NCBI GenBank assembly: GCA_016342345.1
Contig: JAEINO010000004.1
Span: 79,122 to 143,121 of the forward strand
Direction: 5' to 3'
DNA length: 64,000 bases
Source: Pseudodesulfovibrio sp.
GTDB lineage: Bacteria; Desulfobacterota; Desulfovibrionia; Desulfovibrionales; Desulfovibrionaceae
The position numbers were made by a program, and so were the translations under genes. Positions 12,807 through 28,704 of the stretch are shown here, one piece after another. Position 1 is the first letter of the stretch. The number at the start of each line of letters is the position of its first letter. Under the pieces are notes generated by a model that saw only the letters and a list, made by a program, of their open reading frames with translations, was not told the DNA's origin and ran no database searches.

Positions 12807-13598
12807 ATGGCCGCTTATCCGCCTGTTACGCTGCTGGTCCGTGACATTGACAAGTCCGCTGCCTTTTATGAGAAATCCCTCGGTTTTGTGCTTGCCTGGG
12901 ATGCCTTGCTGATCGGTCCTCACGGTCAGTCTTTGCGTCTTGTGGAAACCGAAGGCACCATGCCGGGCGGATGTGTGGTCGTGACTCTGGAGGTACCGGA
13001 CGTGAGTCGGGCTGCCGATGGAATCATGAACAATGGCGGTGGCAGAGCCGAGAAATTGCTGGGTGATGAACCGCTGTATCTCGGTTTGGATGGCGAGATG
13101 ATAGCCCTGAAGGAACGCGGGTTGCCCGGTGTGGAAGCCGTGAAGCTTGTCGTATATGATTTTGACGGTGTCATGACTGATAATTCCGTGGTCGTGGATC
13201 AGGACGGACACGAGTTCGTGAGTGCCAATAGGAGCGATGGGTTGGGTGTGGGCATGATTCGCAAGCTTGGTCTGGAGCAGCTCATTTTGAGCACCGAGAC
13301 CAATCCTGTGGTCAAGGCACGTGCAGACAAGCTTGGCCTGGATGCCATCCACGGCGTTGGTGACAAGGCGTCCACTCTTCTGGCCTTGTCCTCCAACAAG
13401 GGCGTATCCCTTGTCGAAATTCTGTATGTGGGCAATGATATCAACGATTCAGATGCCATGGCCCTGGCTGGTTTCAAAGTTGCTCCGGCAGACGCTCACC
13501 CGTCCATTCTTGCTCTTGCCGATTATGTCACCAATGCCCGAGGTGGACGTGGTGTCGTCCGAGAGTTGGCTGATGTGCTTGTTTCAGTGATGGGTTGA
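12807..13598 (+). CDS. VOC (glyoxalase-like) domain fused to a KdsC-type HAD phosphatase
   Basis: The 263-residue protein has two domains. Residues 5-105 look like a vicinal-oxygen-chelate domain (VTLLVRDIDKSAAFYEKSLGFVL at the start, GLDGEMIALKER at the end). Residues about 111-263 are a HAD phosphatase of the KdsC/YrbI type: YDFDGVMTD (nucleophile Asp118 and acid Asp120), LILSTE, a Lys at 187, and GNDINDSDAM. KdsC-type enzymes remove phosphate from sugar-acid 8- or 9-phosphates, and the compact cap-less form fits a tetramer. AAGGAG precedes the ATG and the frame is continuous across the domain border. The pairing with a VOC domain is unusual. The substrate is unknown, and no Kdo or sialic-acid genes are nearby. 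Confidence 0.8.
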   Translation: MAAYPPVTLLVRDIDKSAAFYEKSLGFVLAWDALLIGPHGQSLRLVETEGTMPGGCVVVTLEVPDVSRAADGIMNNGGGRAEKLLGDEPLYLGLDGEMIALKERGLPGVEAVKLVVYDFDGVMTDNSVVVDQDGHEFVSANRSDGLGVGMIRKLGLEQLILSTETNPVVKARADKLGLDAIHGVGDKASTLLALSSNKGVSLVEILYVGNDINDSDAMALAGFKVAPADAHPSILALADYVTNARGGRGVVRELADVLVSVMG

Positions 13599-13870
13599 TG
13601 ACAGCAGGCGGGGGTGATTCTTTCCTGGTTTTTCTTTTTCCTTATATGTTCCGGCTGGGTAGAGATCGTTTACGGGTCTGTCTGAAAGCGTAATTCAAAT
13701 TTTTTCGGGTTTCGTGAGATTTGAGTAAAAAAAGTGGCATGAATCTCTCTTTCGTGGTTCTGAAGTTTAATTCGAGTAAAGTGGACCATTTCTGGACATT
13801 ATTCCCGGTTTCAGCCTAAATCAGAGGAACGTGTTCCGTTTGGGGTACGCGGACAGCAATTGGAGAGGGT

Positions 13871-15295
13871 ATGGCTGAAACTTCCTTTGAGAATATTTGC
13901 ATATTCCACATTCTGGACGGGCTGAGGGATGGCCTGTCACATTATTCGCAACCCAGTCGGGCCGCATTGATTTACGCCGAGCACCCAGATTCACCGCCTC
14001 GCATCTGTGACCCGCAGGATCTTTTGAGAGGCCATGAGCCCAAGCTTCAGGACCTCTTTCTGTATTCCAACAAGTGGCGTGACGGCGATGTTTTCAACGA
14101 TGAGGTTCGAGTTCTGGACGGTAATGGAACCGAACTGGATCTTTCAGGTATCATTTCGCTGTCAGCGCGCTCAAAGTCAATGTGCTATCAGGCCTGGTTC
14201 ACGGATCAGCATCCGGATATGTGCAGCCTCGGGCCAACCAAGCGATGGCTTGAAGTTGCGGCAGGATTGCTTTCCCAAAATTTTACGGCTCGAAACGTCA
14301 TGAATCTCGATACTGCCGGCTTTGTGCTTCAGCATTGCGCCAATCACGCCGTGCGTGACCATATTGTTGATGAGCGAATCCGGCAGGGATGGCTTGATAC
14401 CCGGATACGGGTGTATCCTTTCCTTGATGCTGTGCTTGGTGTGTCCGGGACCCAGGAAGAGGGAGCCTGGCCCCGAGGACGTCTGGTCGTGGTGGAGCCA
14501 AGCCAACTGGATCAGGTCCGTTTTATCTGTCGTTTTCCGGAAATGGAACAGCCCATGCTGGCGGATTCGAAACATGTACGGAAGCTTTTGCAGGCCGTTG
14601 AAGAGTCGGGCCGTGTTCTGGTCTCTGATGGAAAAACTGTGCTCGGCATTGCCATAGGCTCCATGCCCGGTGCATATCTGGCGGCCCAGTTCAGCGGAAC
14701 GCACGGTTTTCTGTGGATCAAGAGCGACCCGGTATGCTGTTTCTTTGAAGGACGGTTTCATTCTTCCAACCTGCGGGCCAACCTTGTCCAACTTGAAGAA
14801 CAGATGCTCGAAACCGACATGGAAATGGGACTTCAGCATACCCTGCTCCAGATAGTCTCGTTGATGGTCAATCGGGTTCGTGATCGCAAGCATGGCTGTA
14901 CCCTTGTTATTGATGTTTGCAAGGATCGTCTGGCCATGTCAGGCCAGCATTTCATGGAACCGCTTGATCTCCAAGACAGCGGCCAGCTCAAACTTGCCTG
15001 CTCTCTGGCCAAGCTGGACGGGGCATTGCATATCGGGCGGGATTTGAAGCTTCATGGTTTTGCCTGCCTCATGGACGGACGGTGTGTTCCCGGTGAGAAC
15101 AGGGCGCGTGGTGCTCGTTTCAATTCAGCTCTCAGATTTACGGCCGAGCACGAAGATATCGTGGTGGTGGTCGTCTCCGCTGATCGGCCTGTCTCGATCA
15201 TCAAGAATGGGCAGGAACTGACGGCCCAGTGTCATTTTGACCAGATTCGTGGTTTGTCCCGACCTCCGCTTCTGGCCGAATGGATTATGAGTTGA
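13871..15295 (+). CDS. Divergent diadenylate-cyclase-like (DisA_N/DAC) protein with unknown N-terminal region
   Basis: The 474-residue soluble protein ends in a region resembling the DAC domain that makes c-di-AMP: LDGALHIG (DGA at 383-385), then GFACLMDG, GARFNSAL (414-421) and the strand VVVVVSADRPVSIIKNG. In canonical DACs the second motif is G-x-RHR-A-A; here the Arg is kept but the next two residues are Phe-Asn. Activity or substrate may therefore differ, or it may only bind nucleotide. Residues 1-330 are not recognised and could be a sensor region. The gene starts at an ATG with GGAGAGGGT upstream. It stands between a VOC-HAD gene and an HD-GYP gene. Confidence 0.65.
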   Translation: MAETSFENICIFHILDGLRDGLSHYSQPSRAALIYAEHPDSPPRICDPQDLLRGHEPKLQDLFLYSNKWRDGDVFNDEVRVLDGNGTELDLSGIISLSARSKSMCYQAWFTDQHPDMCSLGPTKRWLEVAAGLLSQNFTARNVMNLDTAGFVLQHCANHAVRDHIVDERIRQGWLDTRIRVYPFLDAVLGVSGTQEEGAWPRGRLVVVEPSQLDQVRFICRFPEMEQPMLADSKHVRKLLQAVEESGRVLVSDGKTVLGIAIGSMPGAYLAAQFSGTHGFLWIKSDPVCCFFEGRFHSSNLRANLVQLEEQMLETDMEMGLQHTLLQIVSLMVNRVRDRKHGCTLVIDVCKDRLAMSGQHFMEPLDLQDSGQLKLACSLAKLDGALHIGRDLKLHGFACLMDGRCVPGENRARGARFNSALRFTAEHEDIVVVVVSADRPVSIIKNGQELTAQCHFDQIRGLSRPPLLAEWIMS

Positions 15296-15706: not shown

Positions 15707-16729
15707 ATGGCGATCAAGGAAAATGTTCTGGGGGTCAAGGAGATTGACTGCTCGGACGGATTGAATACCGAAGATTACAATCAGATAGACCCTGGTATCC
15801 TGGATTGTTTTCCGCGGGCCGAATATCCGGTGAATCTCTTCCATTGGAAGGAGAATATCCGCGTTCTTTCACCGGTTTATCGGACCGGACGTGAAGTTGA
15901 TCGTCATTTGAGGGCCAAGGTCCGCGACCTGAGCGAAAAAGGTCTTCTGTTCTTCTCCCGCAATCAAATTCAGGATTATGCTGCCTGCGTGGCCTGCAAT
16001 CTCGACACTGCCCTGGACGATCCGAATCTGACCTGGGACGAGAAAGCCGGGGTTTTTATTGGCGAACTCGGGCGCAGGCAGGAGGCGGTTTTCCTGAATC
16101 CCATGGCCCGCGAACTGGACGACCTGCAAAAGGCCATTGAGTCCCTGAGTGTCTATCTGGTGGAGGATTCCACCCGCATGTCCAAGGTGGTTCACGATGT
16201 CCATTCCAATATTTTCCCTCAGCGCAGGCGGATAAATGCTTCGCTTCTTGCCTTGGCCGTGTATCTGGAGATGAACAAGGGAGAGATCTTTCTCGAAACC
16301 CTGGAAATAGTGGCTCTGGGCTTCTTTCTCTATGATATAGGCATGTCAAAGGTATCACCCATGATGCTTTCCAAGGCCCAGCAACTGACTCCGCCCGAGA
16401 AGCGGACCGTTCGCGAACATCCCAAGGTGGGGCTTGAAATTCTTGGCAAGCTCAATCTGACCCGTCTCGAAATCACCGAGCCGGTTATTCAGCATCATGA
16501 GCGTATTAACGGAACAGGCTATCCCAACAAGCTCAAGGATGACCGCATCGGGCAATTGGGACGCATCGCCGGAGTGGCTGACTCTTATTGTGCCATGATC
16601 ACTGGTTCTCCTCATCGCAAGGGCATCCCGCCCATCAATGCTGCCGCCGAACTTGTCACCAACGAACGTCAGTATGATCAGGTTGTTTGTCGTACCCTGG
16701 TCCGATTTCTTCAGACAGTCACAAAATAG
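15707..16729 (+). CDS. HD-GYP-type protein with altered HD motif
   Basis: The 340-residue protein has an unrecognised N-terminal region (1-120, no membrane segment) and a C-terminal HD-GYP domain (about 165-335). The hallmark RINGTGYP and the paired His in VIQHHERINGTGYP and REHPKVGLEIL are present. The canonical HD metal pair at ALLHDIGK is changed to FFLYDIGMSK, so the first His is Tyr and the Lys is lost. The usual AVADxYDA is GVADSYCA. HD-GYP proteins hydrolyse c-di-GMP, but with these changes this one may be inactive or act as a binding or partner protein. No strong ribosome site is visible before the ATG. Confidence 0.8.
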   Translation: MAIKENVLGVKEIDCSDGLNTEDYNQIDPGILDCFPRAEYPVNLFHWKENIRVLSPVYRTGREVDRHLRAKVRDLSEKGLLFFSRNQIQDYAACVACNLDTALDDPNLTWDEKAGVFIGELGRRQEAVFLNPMARELDDLQKAIESLSVYLVEDSTRMSKVVHDVHSNIFPQRRRINASLLALAVYLEMNKGEIFLETLEIVALGFFLYDIGMSKVSPMMLSKAQQLTPPEKRTVREHPKVGLEILGKLNLTRLEITEPVIQHHERINGTGYPNKLKDDRIGQLGRIAGVADSYCAMITGSPHRKGIPPINAAAELVTNERQYDQVVCRTLVRFLQTVTK

Positions 16730-21137: not shown

Positions 21138-22190
21138 TCAGTCTGTGAAGGTGCAGACCTGATTGCGACCCGAGTCCTTTGCTTCATACAGGGCCGTGTC
21201 TGCGGCATTGACAAGCTTTCCCGAATTCCAGTCCGTGCGCCACTGGGCCACGCCAATGGAAACGGTGAACTGGATTGGTTTGTTTGCCAGTTGTCCGTCA
21301 GTGCGGATGCGGAAATCATAGCTTTCCACGTCGGCCCGGATGGCCTCGGCCTTGAGAATGGCTTTGTCCAGAGTCATGCCCTTCATGACGATGACCAGTT
21401 CTTCTCCCCCATACCGGGCCGTGAAACTTTGATACTGGATGGCGTGGGCGCAGATGATTCGGGCCAGGGCGTGCAGGAAATCGTCGCCTGCCTGGTGTCC
21501 GTAAGTGTCGTTGACTTTCTTGAAGTGGTCCACATCGATCATCATCAGGGACAGGGGTGCGTCCTTTTTTCGTTGACCCAGGACCGCGTCATTGATGAAG
21601 GCATCCAGCGCGCGCCGGTTGTGCAACTCGGTGAGCATTGGGTCGAAGTTGGCTGTGTGTTCCAGCATTCGGGCCTTGGCTTGCAGTTCTCTGGCTTCTT
21701 CCTTGAATTCCACGATCAGATCCTGAAACATGTCCCGGACCTTGGACACGATAAGCGACTGGTCCTTGCCTGATTTGATGACACCCACTGTCTGTTCTTT
21801 GAAAGCGTCCAGTTTACGGTTCTGGCGTTCGCAGTTGCCCTGCATGGAGTTGATGATTCCATGCATCTCGTTGAGGAGTTGGGTGGCTGAGCGTTTTTCC
21901 TGAGCCAGGGACTCCTCAAGTTCAAGTGCGCCAATGGTTTGCATGATATACATGTCGAGCATGGCTATGATGGTCTCAAACTGTTTGTCCGAGAAGTCTT
22001 TTTTGGCGAGCTCCCTGAATATTTCCTGCTGGATTTCTATTTTCTTTTTGTCGGAATAGATGGACAGCTTGGTGAGCAGATTGCGTACGAAAAGTACAAT
22101 AGCCAACCAGTCCTGATCGTTGTCTATTCCAAAATTCTTGAGGATTGCGGACAATTCGCCCATGCTTTTGCGTGCGTTTTTTTGCGTCAT
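21138..22190 (-). CDS. GGDEF-domain diguanylate cyclase
   Basis: I start at the ATG at 22190 (AGGA upstream) rather than the TTG at 22271, which has no ribosome site; this gives 350 residues. The N-terminal half is helical with a coiled coil (about 50-190) and no membrane segment. The C-terminal GGDEF domain has the metal site MMIDVDHFKKVNDTYGHQAGD and the active signature RYGGEELVIVM. It should join two GTP to make c-di-GMP. No RxxD inhibitory site is seen at the usual position (five residues before GGEEL). Downstream is the orphan sensor and upstream an HD-GYP phosphodiesterase, all on the minus strand, so synthesis and degradation lie in one cluster. Confidence 0.9.
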   Translation of the reverse strand: MTQKNARKSMGELSAILKNFGIDNDQDWLAIVLFVRNLLTKLSIYSDKKKIEIQQEIFRELAKKDFSDKQFETIIAMLDMYIMQTIGALELEESLAQEKRSATQLLNEMHGIINSMQGNCERQNRKLDAFKEQTVGVIKSGKDQSLIVSKVRDMFQDLIVEFKEEARELQAKARMLEHTANFDPMLTELHNRRALDAFINDAVLGQRKKDAPLSLMMIDVDHFKKVNDTYGHQAGDDFLHALARIICAHAIQYQSFTARYGGEELVIVMKGMTLDKAILKAEAIRADVESYDFRIRTDGQLANKPIQFTVSIGVAQWRTDWNSGKLVNAADTALYEAKDSGRNQVCTFTD

Positions 22191-22339
22191 ATCGGTGTCC
22201 TGTTCAAGGCGTGTTCCGGTTTTGGAGGCAGAGCTTGTCAACCCAACTTCATCATAGGGAAAAATGTTCAAACCGGTAAAGGGAATAATTGCAATTGTGG
22301 CAGGAGGCGGGCGCGGGAAGCACGTGTGTTGGTGATTCG

Positions 22340-23320
22340 TTAAAGCATGTCCGCGCCGCTCAGGACTGCTACGAATCGTTTGAAGACATTCATGTCCACA
22401 CCATCGCGCATGTCGTGACGGATGAGGGTCAGAGCCTCGTAGGGTTGCATGGCTTCGGCATATGGGCGCTCTGTTGTCAGGGCGTCATATATGTCCGACA
22501 TGGAAATGATGCGGACAGGCATGGGGATGTTGTCGCCTTTGAGACCTGCCGGATAGCCTGTACCGTCCAGTTTTTCGTGGTGGAAGAGTATGCAGTTGAT
22601 GGTGTTTTGCGTCATGGGCAGGTGGGCGCACATGGAGACTCCGTGTATGGGGTGCTCCTTGATTATTTCACGTTCGGCCCGGGTCAGGGAACCTCGTTTG
22701 TTGAGGATGCGCCGGGGAATCTTGGCCTTGCCCACATCGTGCAGCAGTGCGCCCAGACCGCATTCATAGATTTCGTTGTCGTCCATGTCGTATGTCTGGA
22801 ATACGGCCACGGAGTAGATGAAGACGTGCATGCAATGAGTGTAGGTCTTGTAATCATGGGAAATGAACGGGGCAACGGCTGAAAGAGATGAGTCTGTTGC
22901 CAGAAATTTGATGGAATTCTTGACGATTTCCGAAATGCGGTCAAAGTGTCTGGCCCGGAGCGCGCTGGGCAACTTGCGCTCGAAGACATCCTGCATGACA
23001 ACTGTGGAGGCTTCATAGAAGACCTCGGAGCGGACCTCGATGGGCAGGTTCTCATCCAGAAGAATACTGCCTAGATTGAGCTCGATGTATTTTTCGTATT
23101 GTGGCCGTTCGGAACCCTGGATGTAGACTTCCTTGATTCCGTTCTTGTGCAGAACCTGGCGATGCTTGAGGGTGAACTTGTGGCCCGATTTTGTGTACAG
23201 CACAAAGTCCCCTCCCTGCCAGAGGAAGACGGAAAAATCCCCCAAGGCTTCCGGGAAGAGCATAACCGGAGAGACGGGGAAGTAGGATACCGGTCGAGCG
23301 GCGCGAAGGTTTGTATCCAT
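22340..23320 (-). CDS. HD-GYP c-di-GMP phosphodiesterase
   Basis: The protein (326 residues from the ATG at 23320; the track's TTG at 23347 lacks a ribosome site) has an N-terminal DUF3391-like region (FVLYTKSGHKFTLKHRQVLHKNGIKEVYI) and a complete HD-GYP domain: ALLHDVGKAKIPRRILNK, IIKEHPIHG, ILFHHEKLDGTGYPAGLKG and ISMSDIYDALTTERPY. All metal-binding residues are present, so it should hydrolyse c-di-GMP to GMP. No membrane or receiver domain, thus cytoplasmic. It lies 149 bases upstream of the GGDEF gene on the same strand. Confidence 0.9.
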   Translation of the reverse strand: MDTNLRAARPVSYFPVSPVMLFPEALGDFSVFLWQGGDFVLYTKSGHKFTLKHRQVLHKNGIKEVYIQGSERPQYEKYIELNLGSILLDENLPIEVRSEVFYEASTVVMQDVFERKLPSALRARHFDRISEIVKNSIKFLATDSSLSAVAPFISHDYKTYTHCMHVFIYSVAVFQTYDMDDNEIYECGLGALLHDVGKAKIPRRILNKRGSLTRAEREIIKEHPIHGVSMCAHLPMTQNTINCILFHHEKLDGTGYPAGLKGDNIPMPVRIISMSDIYDALTTERPYAEAMQPYEALTLIRHDMRDGVDMNVFKRFVAVLSGADML

Positions 23321-23489
23321 CTCTGCTGAAGTATAATAATAGTTCAACGAAGGCTAGTTAAAATCATGAGAAAGCCTAGAGGGATGAAATTATCCGGGCA
23401 TTGTCAGTGGTTGCCGTCAAGCAGAAATTGTGTTGGCGAAGAGCCCCTTTCAATTTTTGCGGATGGACGATCTGGTTGCGGGAAAGAGT

Positions 23490-24161
23490 TTACGCAGATT
23501 TGGTTGTTGGAGCGGGCGGGCGCGATTTCAGCCTGTCCAGAATAATGCCCATGTCCGGGGGGATGATGTCCATGAAGATATGTTTTTCCTCTTCATAAAC
23601 CGAGAAAGGAAGGCGAGGGTATCCCTTTTTCCACATGGGTTCGAATCGAACACTCGGATCATTCACCCAGAAGACGCCGAGTCCGAAATCGCTGTCAACG
23701 ACGAACGAGTGTATGTCTGCATAGTTGTGATGAAGATCGTGCATGATTTTCCAGACATCGCCATTCCATGCGCCGGTTTTTATTTTTCGGGCACCTTCAG
23801 CCTCGGACGAAGGCAATAGATCGTGTGCCACGACATACCCACCCGGACGCAGACAATTCAGCGCATTGAGAACATCCTTGATGGACTGTTCGTAGAGGTG
23901 CAAGCCGTCCACAAAGATCACATCAAACTGTTCCTGGTTCTGCCTGAAAAAGGGATCGCTTTCGCAGGGATAGACTCGCACGCCCACAAGTCCGTTGCTC
24001 AGCGGCGGCTTCAGGCGATCAAGCAGGGGGGGCGGGTCGACTCCGGTTCGGCCAGGCACTTGAACCTGGCTGAGAACTTCACCTTCCCGAATTCCTATTT
24101 CAAGGTAGTCCGTTGCCCTGATGTGTGCGCAGATTGCGTTGATCAATTCGATTCTAGTCAT
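23490..24161 (-). CDS. Class I SAM-dependent methyltransferase (Methyltransf_24-like)
   Basis: A 223-residue protein with a Rossmann-type methyltransferase core: motif I YLEIGIREGEVL, then FDVIFVDGLHLYEQSIKDVLNALNCLRPGGYVVAHDLLP, the pattern of the methyltransferase family often encoded with glycan genes. The acidic residue Asp in VVAHDLLP and the His in FVDGLHLYE are typical. The acceptor is unknown. It is on the minus strand after the giant hybrid kinase gene, with a gap of about 105 bases, and has no clear ribosome site. No sugar-biosynthesis genes are adjacent. Confidence 0.8.
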   Translation of the reverse strand: MTRIELINAICAHIRATDYLEIGIREGEVLSQVQVPGRTGVDPPPLLDRLKPPLSNGLVGVRVYPCESDPFFRQNQEQFDVIFVDGLHLYEQSIKDVLNALNCLRPGGYVVAHDLLPSSEAEGARKIKTGAWNGDVWKIMHDLHHNYADIHSFVVDSDFGLGVFWVNDPSVRFEPMWKKGYPRLPFSVYEEEKHIFMDIIPPDMGIILDRLKSRPPAPTTKSA

Positions 24162-24267
24162 GTCATTGTCATGCTACGTGTCAGAAAAGCAGAGTGCAAT
24201 ATTTTTATGGTAATGCAGCAGATGGCAAAAGGTGAAGGGGAATCGGGAAGACTGGTTATTGTCTGGT

Positions 24268-27200
24268 TTAGTCCTGATCCTTTGTCATGGGGAACAGGTG
24301 CGCCAGGACTCTTTCGATTTCTTCCATTTCAACGGGCTTGGCAATGTAGTCTGTCATGCCGCTTTTGATGAAGCCTTCACGGTCGCCAAGCATGGCGTGT
24401 GCGGTCATGGCGATGATCGGCGTGTGTGGGTCCATGGTGGAGCCTGCAGGGGCATTTCGTATCATGCGGGTTGCTTCGATGCCGTCCATGCCGGGCATTT
24501 GAATGTCCATGAATACGGCATCAAAGGAGTGTTTTTCAAGAAGCCTGAGGGCCTCTTCGCCTTCACAGGCCGTTTCTGCAAGGTGTCCGAGTTTGCCGAG
24601 CATCCGGGCGGCCATGAGCCTGTTGACGCGGTTGTCTTCGACAACGAGGAGTTTGAGTCCTGTTCTGGAGGCCATGTGCTGATCGTTGTCTTTCTGAGTA
24701 TCTTCGATGTTTATTGGGTCGAATTGGAGATTCAGGGCGAGATGGACGATGGTGCCCATTCCCTTGTTGCTTTCGATGGACAGGGACCCACCCATGATAC
24801 CTGCCAGTCTTTTCACGATGCCCAACCCCAGTCCCGTTCCTTGGTGTCGGCGTATGTAGGAACCATCGACCTGGGTAAAAGGTTCGAAAATGTGGTCGAT
24901 CATTTCGTCCGGGATACCAATCCCCGAGTCTTCAACGCTGAACAGGATTCTGACTGTGCCGGTTTGCATGTCCTTGTTGATCAGGTGGACGGAAACAGAG
25001 ATCCTGCCACTGTCGGTGAACTTGATGGCGTTGCCTACAAGGTTGAAGAGAATCTGTTTGAGTCGACTTTTGCCGCCCACGAGTTTGCAGGGAACCTCGG
25101 AGCCGATGTCGCTGACAAGAGTCAATCCCTTGTCCTGAGCCTGTCCCCTGAAAGAGGCCAGGACATCCTGCATGAATGTCGTGAGGGAAAACGGCTCGGT
25201 GACGATTTCCATTTTGCCCGCTTCGATCTTGGAGAAGTCCAGGATGTCGTTGATGATGGAGAGCAGGCTGCGGCCCGAGAAAAGAGCGGTGCTCACATAG
25301 TCGGCCTGTTCTTCAGTCAGGTCGGTTGTCTGGGCGAGTTGCAGCATCCCGAGTACGCCATTGAGTGGTGTTCTGATTTCGTGGCTCATGTTGGCCAGGA
25401 ACTCGCTCTTGGATTGGTTGGCTGCTTCGGCCAGTTCCTTGGCCTTGAGTAAATCCTGTTCATTGGTCTTTCGCTCGATGGCCAGGGCTATCTGTTCGGA
25501 CACGGAGACAAGAAGCCCCACATCCTTTGCCGAATATTGGTTGGAGTTCGTATAGGACTGTACAGCCATGACTCCCACGACCTCATTTCGTATCTTGAGT
25601 GGAACGCCCAGCCAGACTTCGGAACGTGTTCCGAGCATGGCCTCTTCACGGGTGTGCCTTTGTTTAAGGAAGGTCTTTCGGGTCAGATGCTCAGTGTTGT
25701 GGAGTCTGAGGTCGTTCAAGGTTGGAGAGTCGGGATCAGGAAGAGCCTTTTTGTTGACGAGCAGAGGTCTGCCGGATCGGATGACTTCGACGGCAAAGCT
25801 GGTGGTGGCTTGTTCGTCGATGTCGAGTATTGCGCCCTTCAAGTCGTCCATTTCATCTTCGAAATAGGAGAATTCAAGGTGTCTTCTGCTCTTGTCCAGA
25901 AGCGCGATGAAGAAGTTGGCGGCTTCGATATTGTCGTTGAGGGCCGTGTGTATGCGTCCGTATAGGTCGTCGAGATCCGAAGTTGTGCTGACGGCATTTG
26001 AGATTCGATAGAGCAGGCTGGCCACGGTTTCGTTATAATTGCGTTGGGTGACATCGACTATGGTCCAGATGATGCCTTGGTCGAGGTCGTTTTTATCCAC
26101 TGCCTTGGCAAAGAGGTTGGCCCATATAAGGCCTCCGTCCGGGCGACGGAATTGATGCTCGGCATGGAATTCTCCTTCAATGGACAGTCCGTGCAGACAG
26201 CGTCGGCGAAAGCTTCGGTAGGCTTTGTCGGACTGAAAGAATTGTGATCCGTTGCTGCCAACCATTTTATTCTGGTCGTGGCCGAAGATTTCCGCACCTC
26301 GTTTGTTGATGCGCAGGATGGTGCCGCTCTTGAAAAGCCCGATGCCGATGAACGTGTTGCGCTGGATGGCTTCCGTCTCATCCAGAGCTTCCCGGAGTCT
26401 GTCTTCGGTCTGTTTCCGCGCGGTGAAGTCCATGAGCGACGCTATGGACTGGTTGCTGCCTGGCAACATATCCACCTTGAGGTGGATGTGGCGAATTTTT
26501 CCTGAACGGGTGATGAACTGGAATTCATAGGAAGTGGGTGCATTACTTTTTTTATTGAATCGTTCGCAATGGTATTGGTACATATGTGGAAGAGTGCTTT
26601 CGTCCACGAAATCGGTCCAGGACATGATCCCTTCAATTTCTTTCCGGCTGTATTCGGAGAGTTCGGCAAAGCGTTTGTTGGCTTTGGAGATGGTGGAATC
26701 GCTTTCAATTATGACTGAGGCTGTGCCGGTGGTCTCGAATATGGTGCGATAGAGTTGTTCGGTCTTTTTTCGTGCTTTTTCGGCATTTTTTCGTTTGGAG
26801 ATGTCGCGCATGATGGCAACGTATCCATCGGATTGGCCCTCAAGCATGGGGTGGATGATGGAAATGGAGGTTTCTGTGGGAATGGGGGTGCCATTGCTTG
26901 CGGCGAACGTCCATTCGCCAATCCAGGCACCTGTCCCGGAAAGCGTTGGTCCTATCAATTGATTGAATTTTTCAAAATCCTCTGGAGATTGCTGTAGAAT
27001 TTTAGTGTTTTGTCCGATTAGTGTCCCTTTGTTGAAGCCCAGTCTGGTAATGGCAGATGTGTTCATGTCCGTAATAATCAGATTGGCATCAAAGAGCAGA
27101 ATGGGGTCAATGGAACTCTCGAAGATGGCCCGGAAATATTCGCGGCTTTCCAGCATTCGAGTCTGGGCCAGTGCCGATTCGGTAATGTCCTTGGACACAG

Positions 27201-28704
27201 TGGTGACGTGCGTTACCAGTCCTTCCGTGTCCATGTATGGATACATGAGAACTTCGTAGTATCGGTTATCCCTGTTGGGAAAGGAGAACCATGCCTTGTA
27301 TCTGAGGGCTTTTCCGGTGAAGCATTCTTCAAGATGGGGGAGGATGTATCTTTCGAAAATCTCCTTGCTCCAGAGTTCCTCCACACTGTGTCCGACAATG
27401 GCCTCTTTTGATTTGTCATGGATGTCGAGGTAGGCGCGGTTGACGGCTTCGTAGATATATTCGCGGTTGATCAGGGTCATCAAATCCAGGGAGGCATTGG
27501 CGATGAATTCGAATTTGCGCAATGCTTCCTCAATGTCTTTCCTTGCCGTAATGTCCGAAAAAGAGATGAAGGCGACCTTGCGACCCTCGAGTTCCATGAG
27601 TACGGCGGACGCCTGGGTCCAGAAATGGGTTCCGTCGTGGCGAACCATTTCTATTTCCACGTTGTCCAGATGGCCGTTCTTCAGAACCTGATCGAGGAGG
27701 AGTTCGCGATCCTTTTGGTCAGCGTAGAATTCTTTTGTGGATAGACCCACGGTTTCAGCGGGATCAACGGCAAACTGGGCTGCACTGCTGAGGTTGGCAA
27801 AGATGGTTTTCCCGCTGTCAAGGTCCACGAGGAGTGTCGGCAGCGGTGAACTTTCAAGCAGGGTGCGGAATCGATCCTCGCTTTGCCTCAGCTTATACTC
27901 GGCGGCCTTTTGGCTGGTGATATCGGTAAGAATTCCCACGATTCCGGAAGGTTTGTTGTCCAGATCGGTGAATATGGCTTTTCGGACCAGAATGGTGCGT
28001 TCTTTGCCATCGAAAAGCGTGGTGCGTTCGTATTCCTGCAAGCCCCCCCGGTACAGAAGTTCGCGGTCTTTGTCACGGTAGAATGTTTCTTCGTCCTTGG
28101 GTGCGAAGTCCTCGATTTTCTGGCCTATGAATTTTTCTTTCGGGATGCCGGAAAAATCGACGAAGGCTTTGTTTGCACCAATATATACTCCGTCGAGGTC
28201 CTTGAAGAAGATTTGGTTGGGAACCGCATCTATGACGGTCTGGATGAAGGAAAGCTGGTTGTTAAGTGCCATTTCGGCGCGTTCGCGTTCGCGGGTCTCC
28301 ATGTCGAGTCTCTGGCGTTGGGCCTTGAGGAAAGACGCGCGTTCAAGTGCCTTGGATATGGCCTTGTCCATTTCGGGCAGGACCGAGTCGTTCTTGATTA
28401 CGAAATCCCAGGCACCTTTGCGAACAGTTTTGATGGCGTCTTCTATTTCACTGACTCCGGAAATGACGATGAATGGAATTTCCAGGGAACAATCCGTCAA
28501 TTCGGCAAGCACATAATGGCCGTCCATTTCTGGCATGTACAGATCAAGAAGAACGGCATCCGGCTTTTCTTTCAAAAAAAGGTCGATGCCGGACCTGCCG
28601 TTTTCGGCCTCCAGCATTGTATATCCCTGTTTTTCAAGATGGTGCACCACCAACGTCCTGAATGTAGGATTGTCATCTATGATCAATACGCGGGGTTGAC
28701 TCAA
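24268..28704 (-). CDS. Giant hybrid histidine kinase: receiver, multiple PAS, GAF, kinase, receiver
   Basis: At 1478 residues this is among the largest two-component proteins. Order: receiver 1-120 ([23 protein letters not shown]), about six PAS domains between 150 and 900 (several ending in the DITxRKxxE pattern), a GAF domain (about 905-1080), HisKA at about 1110-1180 ([22 protein letters not shown]), HATPase at about 1190-1335 ([31 protein letters not shown]) and a second receiver at 1350-1470 ([35 protein letters not shown]). There is no membrane segment, so it senses cytoplasmic signals or redox through PAS/GAF. The start is a TTG with GAGGA upstream. No Hpt domain is attached. Confidence 0.92.

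Follow-up and report, generated by a model that had tools for sequence, protein, structure and literature searches.

The window analysed here, a stretch of 64,000 nucleotides from the genome of a Pseudodesulfovibrio species, contains a gene that is one uninterrupted open frame for a protein of 474 amino acids and is directly preceded by a good Shine-Dalgarno-like sequence (Table 1). Its predicted product is a soluble protein under sensor control, related to the enzymes behind the bacterial messenger c-di-AMP, with probable sensor domains in front of a diadenylate cyclase (DAC) domain. Upstream is a KdsC-like gene, followed by a terminator-like hairpin and T run, and downstream, about 410 bp away, is an HD-GYP-like gene. 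The hairpin and the Shine-Dalgarno sequence indicate that the DAC-like gene is probably its own transcription unit; the hairpin comes from a consensus scan that found seven sites in the region where 3.2 were expected. Across the genus the upstream neighbour is usually KdsC, while the downstream gene encodes HD-GYP in some genomes and an MCP in others. A crude longest-ORF picker, which failed to pick the focus gene itself at 14 loci, gave no neighbour conserved across genera, as would fit a messenger that acts in trans. A PADLOC search gave no match.

Other genes around the locus have features of their own. The upstream gene (12807–13598, plus strand) encodes an unusual fusion of a KdsC-like HAD phosphatase and an N-terminal glyoxalase/VOC-like stretch. 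The HD_5/HD-GYP-like product of the downstream gene (15707–16729, plus strand) has LYDIGM for HDIGK with HHxxxNGxGYP intact, and is probably a degenerate HD-GYP. A c-di-GMP-rich signalling stretch lies nearby on the minus strand (21138–28704), with genes for a GGDEF protein, an HD_5 protein and a PAS/GAF hybrid kinase of 1478 amino acids.

Table 1. Features of the DAC-like gene and its 5′ flank (positions in the window).
Feature	Position	Strand	Basis
Terminator-like hairpin and T run, 3′ of the KdsC-like gene	13609..13627	+	consensus scan only
Shine-Dalgarno-like GGAGAGGG, directly 5′ of ATG	13862..13869	+	read from sequence
CDS, DACND-DACNH-DAC protein, 474 aa	13871..15295	+	single open frame
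DACND domain, residues 5–170, probable sensor	13883..14380	+	Pfam PF21749, E 2.8e-69
DACNH domain, residues 182–283, probable sensor	14414..14719	+	Pfam PF21750, E 4.2e-31
DAC (DisA_N) domain, residues 333–448	14867..15214	+	Pfam PF02457, E 8.2e-12; fold model
DGALH motif, residues 383–387	15017..15031	+	family alignments
RGARFNSALRF, residues 413–423, replaces GTRHRAAxG	15107..15139	+	family alignments
VVSADRP, residues 434–440, replaces VSEE	15170..15190	+	alignments, hhalign

A first-pass annotation had recognized a DAC-like C-terminal region and called the long N-terminal region unknown. The HMM search that it proposed bore out the former: the DAC domain was found with a score of 45.2 bits against a curated cut-off of 27, so the likeness is not due to chance. 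The N-terminal region is made up of two named domains, DACND and DACNH. All three domains score above their own Pfam cut-offs, in the order that defines the DACND-DACNH-DAC family (PF21749, PF21750, PF02457). In this order, as in its R[FY]N and SxD motifs and its new arginines (see below), the window protein is by sequence an ordinary member of a family that is named but, as far as we found, biochemically uncharacterised. These N-terminal domains were reportedly described by Galperin in 2023. Neither the transmembrane domain of CdaA nor the DNA-binding part of DisA was detected in the protein.

An AlphaFold model of the DAC part alone (residues 299–474) had a mean pLDDT of 80.5. When it was searched against the PDB, all 50 matches listed were diadenylate cyclases, with a probability of 1.00 and TM to target of up to 0.63 among them; a match to another fold, which the annotation had named as grounds for giving up the assignment, was not there. 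The same model gave no significant match in a viral structure library. The full-length model, based on eight close sequences, had a mean pLDDT of 48 and was poor outside the DAC part, and therefore does not give the folds of DACND and DACNH. At the sequence level, phmmer with the full protein found no match in the PDB, and a profile search found only a marginal one to DacA (E 0.9), collinear over the motifs.

Conservation was assessed in an alignment of 128 family proteins with as little as 42% identity to the window protein. In DACND, R30, D47-P48, H55, W109, W126 and E128 are invariant or nearly so, and H114, C118 and H159 nearly invariant. H55, H114, C118 and H159, each present in at least 122 of the 128 members, could at a guess bind a metal. 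E196-E197-G198 and R237-K238 are the corresponding (near-)invariant residues of DACNH.

It is in the active site that the protein departs from the canonical enzymes. The DGA motif is at residues 383–385, as the annotation had it, within a DGALH sequence of which the D and G are conserved throughout, H387 in 127 of 128 proteins and the A in 106 of 108 in the Desulfovibrionales set. GARFNSAL, residues 414–421, was also rightly read as the replacement of GxRHRAA. Relative to GTRHRAAxG, R416 is kept, the His becomes F/Y417, the second Arg N418 and the Thr Ala, while R413 and R422 are new. In VVSADRP, S436 is kept and D438 takes the place of the metal-binding Glu, in a register that is supported by hhalign, though MAFFT left a one-residue shift there. 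The canonical GxRHRxA and [VI]SEE motifs are thus absent, with GARFNSA and VSAD in their stead. The window protein therefore has in common with CdaA/DacA, DisA and CdaS the DAC fold, the DGA motif, the first Arg of RHR and the conserved Ser; it differs in the four substitutions (H to F/Y, R to N, T to A, E to D) and in the new R413, R422, H387 and E409.

The active-site side chains of LmCdaA from Listeria include D71, R103, S122 and E124, and roles have been described for Ser122 and Glu124 (PMC7288161). Against this site, the ribose Asp (D71), R103 and S122 are kept, E124 is replaced by another acid, D438, and the Thr and His are lost. Comparison with 19 CdaA proteins of the same class, all with G-T-R-H-R-A-A and V-S-E-E and including the copy in the same genome, indicates that the change from RHR to R[FY]N is accompanied by those from T to A and E to D and by the two new arginines; in these CdaA proteins position 413 is aromatic or aliphatic and position 422 is Gly. 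R413 and R422 may replace the lost phosphate contacts. The Leu of the GALI motif is also changed, to Thr, Ala, Ser, Gly or Cys, and mostly to Thr or Ala, in all 57 DACND-NH proteins compared.

The first-pass annotation was correct that RHR is replaced by RFN, but the replacement is not peculiar to this protein. All 128 of 128 DACND-DACNH-DAC members, from across the phylum, have R[FY]N, with Phe at position 417 in 74 and Tyr in 54, which rules out a decay event in this species. D383, D402, E409, R413, R416, N418, S419, R422, S436 and D438 are invariant in the 128 proteins, and G384, G403, G414 and A415 are present in at least 98.5% of them. Positions conserved to at least 98.5% make up 19% of the DAC domain compared with 8–13% of the sensor domains. 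A decayed site would not keep such fixed conservation, and the active site thus looks remodelled under strong selection rather than decayed.

Orthologues with 64–82% identity are present in all 35 genomes of the genus Pseudodesulfovibrio. Of 297 genomes sampled across the class, 117 have DACND, and relatives with DACNH and the same architecture occur in seven other families of the phylum (Desulfobacterota). This distribution indicates that the gene has been kept vertically and is not a mobile oddity. Phage records contained no relative, and a scan of viral contigs with the DS-2 protein gave none. The same genome also encodes a canonical CdaA, with GTRHRAA and VSEE, as do most, indeed nearly all, of the genomes with the DAC-like gene; with its presence in every genome of the genus, this makes it an accessory core gene of the genus. 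Two metagenome-assembled genomes of one genus (g11; loci L224 and L225, genomes G054 and G046) have an R[FY]N DAC as the only DAC domain found; they are 94% and 85% complete, so that the absence of CdaA, which is present elsewhere in the order, may reflect incompleteness. Searches of the window protein's own genome gave no match to a c-di-AMP riboswitch or to a PgpH-type phosphodiesterase, and there was no Rfam match in the window.

The remodelled motif is not confined to chromosomes. Seven related plasmid proteins of the DACNG/DACNH type, three found by tblastn and four more through one of those three, all have R[FYL]N, in the form RG[AS]R[FYL]N[SA] together with S[ED]D. The three that were checked against Pfam have DACNH, in two of them behind DACNG. 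The Citrobacter plasmid DAC, with the motif SRGSRYNSGVR, passes the NCBIfam model DS2_3_antiphage (NF053872) with 803.8 bits against a cut-off of 630 and is in an operon with a phospholipase and a CD-NTase; the set recurs on a Gluconobacter plasmid. CBASS-associated R[FY]N plasmid DACs adjoin nucleotidyltransferase genes in Gluconobacter, Citrobacter and Priestia (L199 3941–5713, L155 5299–7044, L201 3470–4990), two of them beside a patatin phospholipase gene. A Phycisphaera plasmid DAC (L200 3989–5815) varies the motif once more, to RGARLNA, with Leu where the others have Phe/Tyr.

The DS-2 DAC (DACNG-DACNH-DAC) is a tested phage-defence protein: mutation of two predicted catalytic residues is reported to abolish anti-phage defence (PMC13092281). 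It has in common with the window protein DACNH and a DAC domain with RG[AS]R[FYL]N[SA], LDG and S[ED]D, and hhalign aligns the two with a probability of 99.6 over 247 columns. The differences lie in the first domain, DACNG in DS-2 and DACND here, and in the setting. The DS-2 relatives are on plasmids, several beside CBASS genes, whereas the window gene belongs to the chromosomal core and has no defence neighbours.

DACNV-type DACs also have a sensor domain in front and SxD for SEE, but keep the His and have neither R413 nor the LDG and RGAR signature. Four of them (L166–L169) have GTRHN[SA] and SQDG, with the His kept and the second Arg lost. Among DACNV-type DACs, which have SQD, the position of the second Arg varies between R, N, Q and H; with RHN, RHQ and RHH among its variants, this Arg is thus not fixed across DACs. 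In a tree, CdaA branches apart from the sensor-type DACs as a whole with full support, but the tree does not settle how DACNV, DACNG-NH and DACND-NH branched from one another.

What, then, does the protein do? The domain order, the fold and the conserved, remodelled pocket are directly supported, and activity, product and ligand have to be deduced from them. We consider it somewhat probable that this soluble DAC-fold protein synthesizes a cyclic dinucleotide, most likely c-di-AMP, under the control of a ligand. DACND and DACNH would bind an intracellular signal, and the conserved E309-E310 linker helix would relay the state of the sensor to the face-to-face pairing of two DAC domains. Each of these would bind a single purine NTP: D438 would hold Mg or Mn, D383 the ribose, and R416 and S436 the phosphates, and R413 and R422 would take over from the missing His and second Arg. 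The two NTPs would then be joined to form a cyclic dinucleotide, most likely c-di-AMP, and the protein would act as a signal-triggered accessory source of messenger beside the housekeeping CdaA. An active synthase is favoured by the intact and strongly conserved pocket and by the reported loss of defence in the DS-2 mutants (PMC13092281). Against it, the phosphate-binding Thr and His are both gone, the adenine-contacting Leu of GALI is mostly Thr or Ala, and a second source of c-di-AMP is not needed where, as in most such genomes, CdaA is already present. The literature, as far as it was accessible, contained no assay of any R[FY]N DAC.

The first-pass annotation had suggested a different cyclic nucleotide or binding alone. 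Two observations together keep such explanations alive: the His and second Arg are lost, and mutants in which RHR was changed to AAA are dead in M. tuberculosis DacA and B. thuringiensis CdaS (PMC3328451, PMC4568413). A less likely, still credible alternative is a catalytically dead DAC that serves as a nucleotide sensor, binding ATP or the c-di-AMP made by CdaA and signalling to DACND/DACNH or to a partner. The loss of the Thr and His phosphate ligands and of the second Arg agrees with this, as does the canonical CdaA in this genome and in nearly all carrier genomes. Also in its favour, the RHR to AAA change abolishes ATP binding as well as activity in canonical enzymes (PMC3328451). On the other hand, a dead domain sits poorly with the retention of the metal-ligand acid, the ribose Asp, the Arg and the Ser, with the gain of arginines, and with the two g11 genomes, incomplete as they are, in which no other DAC was found. 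The dependence of DS-2 on its predicted catalytic residues points the same way, although those mutants could have lost binding rather than catalysis (PMC13092281).

It is rather unlikely that the protein is a synthase with another product, such as cyclic AMP-GMP, c-di-GMP, some other cyclic or linear dinucleotide or one with another linkage, the remodelled pocket being a specificity switch. The base-contacting GALI Leu is replaced in all of the DACND-NH proteins and the phosphate contacts have changed together with it; moreover, the DS-2 DAC adjoins a CBASS CD-NTase, where a second, distinct signal would make sense (PMC13092281). But no residue with a demonstrated role in recognizing guanine or a pyrimidine could be named, the relatives of the DACNG type are mostly hydrophobic at the GALI Leu position, and the neighbourhood comparisons showed no dedicated gene for a receptor, phosphodiesterase or effector that accompanies the DAC-like gene. 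An anti-phage signalling protein like DS-2 is very improbable: DACNH and the R[FY]N DAC are common to both, and the match to NF053872 has an E-value of 1.4e-16, but the score is 60 bits where the cut-off is 630, DACND replaces DACNG, the gene is in every genome of the genus, and its neighbours are KdsC, HD-GYP and MCP, with neither phospholipase nor CD-NTase beside it and no PADLOC match.

The point of interest is a family-wide remodelled active site that is shared with a tested phage-defence protein. RHR is regarded as indispensable to diadenylate cyclases, but R[FY]N is fixed across a bacterial phylum. These DACs bear on whether the chemistry of the DAC domain can do without the His and the second Arg, and on what DS-2 and the core gene described here signal with. 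The window protein would be a convenient test case, being soluble and having the canonical CdaA of the same genome as a control. There is a small chance that the DACNH clade, marked by R[FY]N, SxD and R413/R422, forms a class of cyclic nucleotide synthases of its own that make something other than c-di-AMP. Should that be so, Desulfobacterota would have a core, signal-gated second messenger parallel to that of CdaA, and the DS-2 relatives would use it as a second signal in CBASS defence.
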